Source: Alphaproteobacteria bacterium
GTDB taxonomy: Bacteria; Pseudomonadota; Alphaproteobacteria; Micropepsales; Micropepsaceae
DNA length: 64,000 bases
Assembly (NCBI GenBank): GCA_947474565.1
Contig: CANJIS010000001.1
Coordinates: 124,001-188,000, forward strand
Reading direction: 5' to 3'
This document shows, in pieces, positions 12,714 through 64,000 of the stretch (its first letter is position 1; the number at the start of each line of letters is the position of its first letter). The translations under genes were made by a program, and so were the position numbers. The notes beneath the pieces are model-generated. The model ran no database searches and had not been told where the DNA came from. It saw nothing but the letters and a program-made list of their open reading frames with translations.

Positions 12714-12900
12714 TCTGTCATGGGACCTGAGAGAATTCCCCGGATTTGATCCAGGTTACCCCGTCGGTGGGTGCGAAACTCTTTGATTAGAAGAGGGCCG
12801 CGCCGCTTTCCAGATTTTCATCACTCTCGCGGTCCTTTTGCCTGAGAGTTTCCCGGGTGGTTGCTCCTTCGGCGCCGTCATAAAAACGATCTCTCCCGCG
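12714..12900 (-). promoter_or_regulatory. Tandem glycine riboswitch controlling the gcv operon
   Basis: Two glycine aptamers on the minus strand. Aptamer 1 (about 12830-12900) reads GGGAGAGAT, then GCGCCGAAGGAGCAA, then GAAACTCTCAGGCAAAAGGAC. Aptamer 2 (about 12714-12824) reads TCTGGAAAGCGGCGC, then CACCGACGGGG, then TTCTCTCAGGTCCCATGACAG. These are the conserved cores of the known class, in tandem with a short linker. It lies directly upstream of gcvT and probably turns expression on when glycine is plentiful. Confidence 0.96.
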
Positions 12901-12957
12901 AAAGATCATGTGCTGACCAGCCGCACGCGCCTCCCGGCGGATGCGGCTGTTGGGGTC

Positions 12958-31708: not shown

Positions 31709-31908
31709 TCGCCGGGACGTTCGATCTTGCGGACCACCAGTTCGTCAATCTCCAGGCGCTTGATGCGCAGCTTGCCCACGGCGGCTTTGCCCACTGCCAG
31801 CTTGCCAATGGCCAGCGCGCCGATCGCCATGGCGCCCACCGCCACCGCACCAAGAGCGGCAGCACCGGCGGCCAAAGCCATCGCGTTTCTGGCAGGACCT
31901 GTTTTCAT
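31705..31908 (-). CDS. Small Ala/Gly/Ile repeat protein
   Basis: 67 residues. After a short basic start (MKTGPARNAMALAAG) comes a six-residue periodic stretch: AVGAMAIGALAIGKLAVGKA, continuing AVGKLRIKRLEIDELVV. The period-five to six pattern of small residues with regular Ile/Leu/Val suggests a miniature beta-helix or a membrane-associated strand rather than a normal helix. Similar small proteins occur in rhizobia and relatives; the function is unknown. A TAATAT box ends six bases before the ATG, so the message may be leaderless. Confidence 0.68.
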   Translation of the reverse strand: MKTGPARNAMALAAGAAALGAVAVGAMAIGALAIGKLAVGKAAVGKLRIKRLEIDELVVRKIERPGD

Positions 31909-31928
31909 CGCGGGATATTAGCACTCCC

Positions 31929-32129
31929 TGTCATTCCCGGCGAGTGAGGCGCGCAGCGTCGAACGAGGGGTGAGGAGTGGTTCGCGTAAGCGAACGAAAT
32001 GGTCCAGCGGACCATTTCGAGCGACGAACGCCGCGAGCTTGGGCGAGCGGCCGGGCGGGAATCCAGGCTTGTGAAACCGTCCAGATATTGAAACTTCCCT
32101 CGGCGCTACGCGCCTCGCCGGGGATGACA
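31929..32129. repeat. Inverted-repeat element A, copy 3, with inserted element C
   Basis: Outer arms TGTCATTCCCGGCGAG and CTCGCCGGGGATGACA. It is longer than other copies (201 bases) because element C (31980-32056) lies in its left half. The inner right arm is shortened: CCAGATATTGAAA is shared with copy 4, but the CCTGGATCCCC block is missing. Right hairpin GGCGC/GCGCC with TAC loop. It fills the divergent promoter region between two genes. Confidence 0.85.
31980..32056 (+). repeat. Three-hairpin element C, copy 2 (nested in A3)
   Basis: Hairpin 1 GTTCGC/GCGAAC; hairpin 2 AAATGGTCC with GGACCATTT around AGC; then the conserved block GCCGCGAGCTTGGGCGAGCGGC, a GCCGC/GCGGC hairpin. Stems 1 and 2 differ from the other copies but keep pairing. 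Confidence 0.75.
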
Positions 32130-51897: not shown

Positions 51898-52800
51898 ATG
51901 GCCGCAAGCCGCAAATTTCGTTACGCCTTGGAAGCTGCGGGCTTCTTTGTGTTGATGGGCTTTCTGCGGCTGTTCAATGTGGATACCGCGTCCCGCATCG
52001 GCGGCTGGATCGGCCGCCGGATTTTCTCGAAGCTGTCGCCCGGCAAGACGGCGCGCAAGAATCTCAAAGCCGCGTTTCCGGAAAAGAGCAAATCCGAGAT
52101 CGAGACCATCCTCACCGCCATGTGGGACAATCTGGGCCGCGTGGTCGGCGAATATCCGCATCTGGGAAGTTTCAACAAGGCCGGACCCGGCACGCGCATC
52201 CTGGTCAAAGGCGTGGAGCATGTCGAGGAAGCGGCGAAGGGTGATCGCGGCACTATGTTCCTGTCGGGCCATCTGGCCAATTGGGAAATGATGCCGATGA
52301 GCGGCGAACTGTGGGGCCTGGATGGCGCCACCGTGGTGCGCCATCCCAACAATCCGCATGTCGCGCGCTGGATCGCCAAGCAGCGCGGACTGAATGGGCC
52401 CAAGGAGCAGATCGGCAAGCATAGCGGGGCGCGGCGCATCTTCTCGCAGCTACGCGGCGGCAAGGTGATCTATATGCTGGTGGACCAGCGCAACGACGAA
52501 GGCATTCCGATAGAATTCTTCGGGCGCCCTGCCCCGACCACACCGGTGCCGGCGGCACTGGCGCTGAAACTGGGGGCGCGCATCCTGGTGGCCAACAACC
52601 GGCGGGTAAACGGGGCGCATTTCGAAGTGACGGTGAATCCAGGGCCGGAGTTTACGCCCACCGGCGATGACGAAGCCGACACCCGCGAATTGACGAAACG
52701 GATCACCGCCCAGATAGAAGCGATGATCCGTTCCAATCCGTCACAATGGCTCTGGATTCACAAGCGCTGGGGTAAGGCCGGGCCCGCGGAACGCGGGTGA
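51898..52800 (+). CDS. lpxL: Lipid A biosynthesis acyltransferase (LpxL/HtrB family)
   Basis: 300 residues. Adds a secondary acyl chain to Kdo-lipid A at the inner membrane. N-terminal membrane helix (YALEAAGFFVLMGFLRLF); catalytic HxxxxE motif is H125-E130 in SGHLANWEMM; also LVDQRNDEGIPIEFFGRPAP and the C-terminal SNPSQWLWIHKRWGKAGPAE. Odd point: the last codons (52783-52797) and the stop belong to repeat element C copy 1, so the C-terminal GPAERG is encoded by the repeat hairpin. Confidence 0.94.
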   Translation: MAASRKFRYALEAAGFFVLMGFLRLFNVDTASRIGGWIGRRIFSKLSPGKTARKNLKAAFPEKSKSEIETILTAMWDNLGRVVGEYPHLGSFNKAGPGTRILVKGVEHVEEAAKGDRGTMFLSGHLANWEMMPMSGELWGLDGATVVRHPNNPHVARWIAKQRGLNGPKEQIGKHSGARRIFSQLRGGKVIYMLVDQRNDEGIPIEFFGRPAPTTPVPAALALKLGARILVANNRRVNGAHFEVTVNPGPEFTPTGDDEADTRELTKRITAQIEAMIRSNPSQWLWIHKRWGKAGPAERG

Positions 52801-52876
52801 GCAGGTCTCGCCACGCTGCCGCTAGCGAGGGACCTGCGAAACGGACGAACGCCGCGAGCCTGGGCGAGCGGCCGGG
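52783..52876 (+). repeat. Three-hairpin element C, copy 1 (overlaps end of lpxL)
   Basis: Hairpin 1 CCCGCG (52783-52788) with CGCGGG (52792-52797), then the lpxL stop within TGAGCAGGTC, a second stem pairing GCAGGTC with GACCTGC, and the conserved block CGCGAGCCTGGGCGAGCGG. The same TGAGCAGGTC follows the hairpin in copy 3. Confidence 0.78.
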
Positions 52877-52897
52877 TGCTTCGACAAGCGCAATGCA

Positions 52898-52930
52898 CAA
52901 CGGGCCCGGTCTGATGACCGAGGCCCGTTG
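52898..52930 (-). terminator. Terminator-like hairpin
   Basis: Stem CAACGGGCC (52898-52906) with GGCCCGTTG (52922-52930), extended inward by CGGT/ACCG. No strong T run on either side, so it may end both convergent units with help, or not be a simple intrinsic terminator. Confidence 0.5.
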
Positions 52931-52952
52931 GACACAAACTTACTTCAGCGAA

Positions 52953-63163: not shown

Positions 63164-63239
63164 CCGCTGCCGCTCGCCCAAGCTCGCGGCGGCTCACGAC
63201 TTTCGCAGGTCCACTGGACCTGCTCATGCGCTTTGCGCA
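63164..63239 (-). repeat. Three-hairpin element C, copy 3 (overlaps end of the cation transporter gene)
   Basis: Read on the minus strand: hairpin 1 TGCGC/GCGCA around AAA (63227-63239), the transporter stop inside TGAGCAGGTC, hairpin 2 GCAGGTCC with GGACCTGC around AGT, then GCCGCGAGCTTGGGCGAGCGGC. The first hairpin lies in the last codons of the gene. Confidence 0.78.
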
Positions 63240-64000
63240 CCGTCGTTCGCCGGGTCCTGGTGAATGATCACTTCGGCCTGGGGAAACGCAGCGCAGAGAT
63301 CTTTTTCCACCTGGTCTGAAATCCCATGCGCCTGGGCCAGGGTGATGTGCGGGTCCAGTTCCAGATGCACCTGGATAAAGACCGAACCGCCGGCCTGACG
63401 GGTCTTCAGTTCATGCAGCGCCCGCACATCATTGTGGCGCTTTACAATATCGACGATCCTGTCGCGCTCGGCATCGGGCAGTTCGCGGTCCATCAATTGG
63501 TCGAAGCTGACGCGGAACACGCTCCAGGCGCTGACCACCATCACCAGCGCCACCAGCAGCGCGATAATCGGATCAGCGGCCGTCCAGCCCAGCCGGGTGG
63601 AGAGGATGATCGCCACCACCACGCCGACATTGCTGACCAGATCGCCGAAATAATGGGTGGCGTCTGCCGTCACCGCCACCGATCCGGTTTTGGCGATGAC
63701 GCGGCGCTCATACAGGATCAGCGCAATGGCGGCGGCGATGGCCAGGAACATCACGATCAACGCTTCCAGCGAATGATCGATCGGCTGCGGCGCCATCAGC
63801 CGCTGCACGCCTTCGGCCACCAGAAACACCGCCGAGGCGGCGATGAAGGCGCCCTGCGCCAGGCCGGCCAGCGGTTCGGCCTTGCCATGGCCGAAGCGAT
63901 GTTCGGCATCTGCGGGGCTGAGCGCCGAATGGATTGCCCACATGTTGAGGCCGGAGGTGAAAAGATCGAGCGCCGAATCCGCCAGGCTGGCTAGCATCGC
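63224..64000 (-). CDS. Cation diffusion facilitator (FieF-like; 5' end outside window)
   Basis: At least 258 residues, open to the window edge. CDF metal/H+ antiporter: the first metal site reads SLADSALDLFTSGLNMWAIH with HRFGHGKAEPLAGLAQGAFI, the second ADATHYFGDLVSNVGVVVA, followed by TAADPIIALLVALVMVVSAW and a cytosolic C-terminal domain (DVRALHELKTRQAGGSVFIQ, HLELDPHITLAQAHGISDQV). The metal (Fe, Zn, Mn) is not decidable by eye. The final residues and stop are encoded by repeat element C copy 3. Confidence 0.93.
   Translation of the reverse strand, partial: AMLASLADSALDLFTSGLNMWAIHSALSPADAEHRFGHGKAEPLAGLAQGAFIAASAVFLVAEGVQRLMAPQPIDHSLEALIVMFLAIAAAIALILYERRVIAKTGSVAVTADATHYFGDLVSNVGVVVAIILSTRLGWTAADPIIALLVALVMVVSAWSVFRVSFDQLMDRELPDAERDRIVDIVKRHNDVRALHELKTRQAGGSVFIQVHLELDPHITLAQAHGISDQVEKDLCAAFPQAEVIIHQDPANDGAQSA

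Follow-up and report, generated by a model that had tools for sequence, protein, structure and literature searches.

lpxL ends inside a small structured element

The locus carries an lpxL-type lauroyl acyltransferase gene, identified by the family match of its product, at 51898-52800 on the + strand of the window, the whole 64,000-nt stretch of DNA that was analyzed. The final nine residues of the protein are encoded at or in a small repeated element, which a covariance model places at 52770-52872 (+ strand; 61.3 bits, E = 6.8e-12). The 3' end of the gene reads CGC TGG GGT AAG GCC GGG CCC GCG GAA CGC GGG TGA, and in the open reading frame list the protein ends in ...WIHKRW-GKAGPAERG*. The element begins directly after the TGG codon, and translation stops at its second TGA.

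Alignment to the model puts the 5' arm of stem P1 (GTAAGGCCG) at 52772-52780, where the TGA of the usual GTGAG has become TAA and is out of frame. Hairpin P2 (52783-52797, from sequence and model) runs CCCGCG (52783-52788), GAA, CGCGGG (52792-52797) and codes for the LpxL end; the stop codon (TGA, 52798-52800, from the open reading frame list) sits at the P2/P3 junction. Next come hairpin P3 (GCAGGTC...GACCTGC, 52801-52837, sequence and model), whose loop is enlarged by an inserted stretch, the 3' arm of P1 (CGGACGAAC, 52842-52850, model alignment), and hairpin P4 (GCCGC-GA-GC-CTGG-GC-GA-GCGGC, 52851-52872, sequence and model), which has a tandem G.A internal loop. When this copy was folded as a single sequence, with its enlarged P3 loop, the three-way junction was not the minimum (z = -0.82).

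An earlier note on this DNA had proposed that the hairpin CCCGCG/CGCGGG encodes the GPAERG end of LpxL and that the stop belongs to the same block, and sequence and open reading frame list agree with it. The span it gave, 52783-52876, covers most of the element, whose start lies some 13 nt further 5', at 52770; the block of hairpin and stop is real but only one part of a larger, strongly covarying fold. Comparison of LpxL C-termini, the check that the note had suggested, found neither the KAGPAERG tail nor the P2 hairpin in any element-free orthologue read, nearly all of which retain ...IH-x-RW and vary freely beyond it. This supports an origin of the lpxL tail and stop from the element. A lipid A enzyme can thus have its C-terminal residues and stop codon replaced by an insertion while its conserved core is spared.

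Other genes with element-encoded tails

A second copy occupies 63169-63252 on the - strand (84.9 bits, E = 3e-17) and forms the three-way junction when folded as a single sequence (z = -4.3). The unrelated cation transporter gene that the note saw ending at 63224 in a like block is, from its family match, of the CDF/FieF type, with both the hairpin and TGAGCAGGTC present; its 3' end is GCGCAAAGCGCA-TGA-GCAGGTCC, and the stop (63224-63226, - strand, read as 63226-63224) again lies at the P2/P3 junction. CDF proteins naturally end in IIHQDP plus a variable tail, and the element-bearing protein here ends in ANDGAQSA. A third gene of the genome, xerC, terminates like these two (L004/L013/L159): the natural XerC tail is AHPRGR or similar, here it is AHPRGRGPQSG, with GPQSG added, and the host codons for PRGR make up the 5' arm of P1. 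The usual 5' GTGAG is altered in all three genes (lpxL, GTAAG; CDF, GCGAA; xerC, GAGAG); because there is no first TGA in frame, reading goes on to the second TGA and each protein gains an element-encoded tail.

The window has exactly two copies of the 10-mer TGAGCAGGTC; with up to one mismatch allowed there are 6 matches against 3.25 expected, which is not significant alone. It was therefore too weak to serve as the defining mark of the element, which in full is significant by covariance model.

The third window copy (31968-32051, + strand; 98.3 bits, E = 2.7e-20) overlaps no gene stop and is nested in a CGTC-type REP; the three-way junction is not the minimum of its single-sequence fold. These REPs (TGTCATYCCCGGCGAG...CGAGGGAAGGGRATCCAGG) are a separate family of dispersed repeat, and the window contains at least 8 intact ones (7668, 17321, 31929, 54435, 58437 and others); the element at 31968 interrupts one of them.

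A covarying fold on the sense strand

The element is about 85 nt long. Stem P1, of 9-10 bp with consensus arms GTGAGGAGC/GCGACGAAC, encloses hairpins P2 and P3 and closes a three-way junction, and hairpin P4 follows. The ends are 5' GTGAG and 3' GCGGC-CGGR, and GGTCC-AGY-GGACC is the part that is constant in sequence. Across 102 aligned copies, 28 of 34 pairs are changed on both sides (487 cells), and all five covariation measures lie above every shuffle (0/500), a test that kinship among the copies inflates; the signal is lost when the partner is slid by 1-3 columns. The three-way junction rests on this covariation, because tandem G.A pairs in such a setting are given poor scores by energy models. 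Tandem G.A pairs are found in P1, P3 and P4, are exchanged for Watson-Crick pairs in P1 and P3, and are retained at two places in 93-95 of the 102 copies. The 119 aligned rows contain 648 G.A cells versus 3 C.T, and 39 G.U versus 18 A.C; the strand that folds is therefore the one read here, which for most copies is the sense strand of the gene upstream. Strong covariation backs the fold, and the tandem G.A mismatches tie it to the sense strand.

One pair of loci allows a single insertion to be followed. L161 in our genome and L385 in G038 are one insertion in the same gene, sharing an unusually long P2 and an identical P3, and they differ by four compensatory changes with no broken pair, P1 included. 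Their P1 arms are GAGAGGTTG/CAACCGAGC and GCGAGACTT/AAGTCGAGC, with host codons for the conserved GWxRL end forming the 5' arm. This pattern suggests a function in mRNA. At L161, L385 and L159, host arginine codons in the P1 5' arm are AGA/AGG where CGN prevails in element-free orthologues, as though the coding sequence were bending to the G.A motif. Minimal variants without P2, in which P1 encloses P3 only and P4 follows (L164, L165, L166 and L332), are possibly an ancestral or a derived subtype.

Distribution among genomes

Named LpxL relatives in public genomes include one from a Micropepsaceae bacterium, which makes this the most likely family of the host. Pattern searches of the whole genome matched the P3 block 9 times and P4 17 times, all within one unit of about 85 nt, and the covariance model found 33 copies at E ≤ 0.012, with 36 in G039 and 55 in G087. 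Matches were present in 36 of 96 genomes of the family and in 35 of 69 of the genus, with up to 55 copies each; about half of the genus is element-free. The element is retained at the same stops in genomes that are just ~75-85% identical. In a class-wide sample of 385 genomes, matches outside the family were confined to G414 (6 copies) and G176 (2 copies), which belong to other families of the class. Their copies have a different P4, of the GCCCGGAGC...GCGAAGGGC type, and were sited at a stop in one of the eight checked.

Literature searches found no published description of the element. Rfam 15 gave no match in 52700-52950 and, in 31900-32120, only matches far below the gathering threshold; the sole Rfam match in the whole window was a glycine riboswitch (RF00504, 79 bits) at 12820-12908 on the minus strand.

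Position of the element at gene ends

With genes placed by a small codon-usage gene caller written for this analysis, the 117 distinct copies fell after a same-strand gene (100 copies), after an antisense gene (16) or within a gene (1). The gene stop lies at +4, where it is the TGA of the 5' GTGAG, in 41 of the 100 sense copies and at +1 (TAG, then TGAG) in 8; overall, 66 sense copies have a stop within -3 to +7 nt of the element GTGAG. Some copies lie antisense, inside a REP or at a distance from any stop. These counts support a location at gene ends far beyond chance. The note had pictured an element arriving with its own hairpin and with TGAGCAGGTC as the stop. This applies to a minority, since the stop is at +20 to +29 in 10 of the 100, some of them at the P2/P3-junction TGA, and the usual stop is that of the 5' GTGAG. 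For the targeted insertion at gene ends that it also proposed, a control with free GTGAG sites, taken from 464 kb of the genome, allows another reading. Counting sense sites outside coding sequence and within -70 to +7, the share with a stop was 16/34 for free GTGAG and 39/68 for copies starting with GTGAG (p = 0.40). The excess of element copies at stops over all intergenic GTGAG sites was significant (p = 8e-5). Because the free sites have a similar share, a GTGAG start and purging elsewhere explain much of the stop overlap, and the overlap alone was dropped as proof of stop targeting; beyond this account are 15 further copies with a stop at other offsets from -3 to +7, versus 1 free site.

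Protein ends were compared with orthologues from 23 genomes. The natural end is kept in element-bearing queD, htpX, gcrA, ppx and an SDR gene, and element-free orthologues commonly match it. The pepA product of G057 is one residue shorter than those of element-free orthologues, and that of G087 keeps the natural end by way of a TAG inside a Watson-Crick P1. In the convergent htpX/SDR gap, the element occupies the SDR side in G039, G078 and G087 and the htpX side in G063, G073 and G080, and its 5' edge is always on the stop of the gene on that side. The last residue is Gly in 25 of the 41 genes with a stop at +4, versus 38 of 435 genome-wide, which looks like a site preference because element-free orthologues of five of the genes often end in Gly too.

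The TGAG itself can have two origins. At 31968 it came with the element, because intact relatives of the split REP mostly read CGAGGGAAGGG at that place. Use of a pre-existing GTGAG is also possible, because the one at which L155 of our genome starts is present in-frame in G038, which has no element at that site (GAAAGAGTGAGC).

At stops with full copies in relatives, L321 (htpX of G019) and L257 (gcrA of G044) consist of the P1 5' arm and a partial P2, and are apparently decayed remnants. The subtype at one stop differs between genomes for gcrA (L210/L177/L256/L254), ppx (L144/L200/L332), pepA (L167/L239) and SDR (L171/L213), through either repeated hot-spot insertion or replacement by conversion. 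Because the subtype differs at several shared loci, replacement or re-insertion can mimic compensatory change.

Mobility

Copying of the element has happened, because two copies on different contigs, those of lpxL and xerC, share an identical 39-nt P3 block (flanking GA and enlarged loop included). No Y1 transposase (PF01797) was found in our genome; in the genus it occurs in 18 of 69 genomes, mostly element-free ones, and in few element-rich relatives. Mobilization by a RAYT or an IS200/IS605 derivative, as for REPs, was rejected on the Y1 association in our genome and the genus, although a past or foreign enzyme may have acted. The terminal inverted repeats of a MITE are absent on reading the ends, GRGTGAGGAG and, as reverse complement of the 3' end, YCCGGCCGCTC. 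The sole reconstructable site, in the REP at 31929, has the flanks CGAGGGG (left) and CGGGCGGGAATCC (right), with no clear target-site duplication. At L140/L020 (G000:C9:60065-60147) the element separates an intact gene from a partial copy of the gene's 5' end (MSDTVLVTGASGFVG). The two starts are nearly identical, as though insertion had gone along with a duplication on the spot.

A candidate RNA function and its alternatives

The comparisons show a dispersed element with a strongly covarying fold on the sense strand, a stop in or beside the 5' arm of P1, and element-encoded tails in lpxL, CDF and xerC. From these we infer an RNA function. Our preferred explanation, to which we give a probability of about 0.5, is that these are small dispersed elements acting as structured RNA at gene 3' ends. 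As mobile DNA, copies would have spread to sites in or next to the last codon and brought their own G-TGA-G, so that the host protein would keep its natural end; in copies without an in-frame 5' TGA, ribosomes would read on through P2 to the next stop, as in lpxL. Retained copies would fold within the mRNA. The stop codon in P1 could couple the fold to translation, with the terminating ribosome opening P1 and its departure allowing P1 to re-form. The most likely effect would be altered termination or recycling, reinitiation at the next gene, or mRNA stability at the 3' end; a fold holding the stop in its closing stem would be well placed for an effect like those of REP and ERIC. Several points weigh against this reading: the position of the element may need no function, because free GTGAG sites within 70 nt after genes have a similar stop share (p = 0.40); some copies lie away from stops, antisense or in a REP; replacement at shared loci can mimic compensatory change; about half of the genus does without the element; and copies outside the family are mostly not on stops.

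A stronger version, a mobile riboregulator obliged to hold the stop in its closing stem and placing 30-55 unrelated genes per genome under common control, we consider rather unlikely. If it were true, ribosomes that open and close P1 would jointly set termination, mRNA stability or translation downstream for all these genes.

The strongest competitor, a tentative reading to which we give less weight than to the structured RNA, is a selfish REP- or MITE-like mobile element with no host function, whose fold would be the DNA substrate of a putative transposase. P1 would then pair target with guide in single-stranded DNA, in the manner of IS200/IS605 left ends; its 3' arm does lie guide-like, directly 5' of the P4 foot. 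The stop location would represent survivors at GTGAG-like sites once harmful insertions had been purged, consistent with the free-GTGAG control and with the L155 site in G038, and the identical block in lpxL and xerC and the copy nested in a REP likewise point to mobility. However, Y1 transposase is absent from the genome and scarce in element-rich relatives, compensatory change preserves the structure at the shared L161/L385 locus, and the same stops keep their copies across ~75-85% identity; the G.A/G.U asymmetry fits RNA equally.

Template switching during replication, which would keep stems paired in quasi-palindromes and produce covariation with neither RNA function nor transposition, appears improbable. 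In long GC-rich hairpins, compensatory changes can indeed arise in a single event, but the process should perfect imperfect stems, yet tandem G.A persists in 93-95 of 102 copies at two places, and the constant GGTCC-AGY-GGACC is left unexplained. An intrinsic terminator or simple 3'-end barrier, suggested by strong hairpins immediately 3' of stop codons, is likewise improbable, since no U-run follows P4 and the 3' flank consensus is CGGR (on which membership of the terminator class was also rejected), and several copies (L138, L139, L148) have their own ordinary GC-hairpin/T-run terminator downstream.

Dispersed palindromes are common in bacteria, and whether they are junk or regulators is seldom clear. 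For the structured RNA proposed here, a translation-coupled function is directly testable, because the element has a strongly covarying fold, a known active strand and a start usually no more than one codon from the protein end, and because related genomes with and without it are at hand.

Comparison with known systems

Two classes were set aside on comparison. The P1 3' arm consensus GCGACGAAC is unlike the RYYYAAC of integron attC sites (RYYYAAC/GTTRRRY cores), and copies follow unlinked, unrelated genes; a bacterial SECIS with UGA recoding was rejected as element-free orthologues end at the same residue.

In the left end of IS200/IS605 and in REP guide-target pairing, a guide immediately 5' of a hairpin base-pairs with the cleavage site, which lies at the 5' edge. 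The element resembles this in the placing of its P1 3' arm and P4, but it has no associated Y1 transposase, and its P1 is 9-10 bp long and encloses two further hairpins.

REPs and BIMEs of the GTAG and CGTC superfamilies are short dispersed hairpins, many near gene ends (PMC3733652, PMC12306157). One source, citing earlier work, reports ribosome stalling and lower translation for REPs no more than 15 nt from a stop codon (PMC12306157). The element resembles them in being short, dispersed and often shortly downstream of genes; it differs in that a REP is a single 20-40 bp hairpin with a GTAG/CGTC tag, whereas the element is a four-helix fold of about 85 nt with a three-way junction, tandem G.A motifs and a stop codon inside a stem. 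REP membership was rejected on this four-helix fold and on the ends GTGAG and GCGGC-CGGR.

ERIC at gene 3' ends and Correia/NEMIS alter mRNA processing, levels or decay in their RNA form (PMC10969869). Both are small and dispersed like the element, and ERIC shares its location at gene 3' ends, but they are MITEs with terminal inverted repeats, of which none were seen here. Rickettsia palindromic elements are likewise dispersed and add residues to unrelated proteins (PMC10969869). They insert within genes and are translated through as a conserved peptide, whereas the element described here lies at the last codon and as a rule contributes no residues, its short tails being the exceptions.
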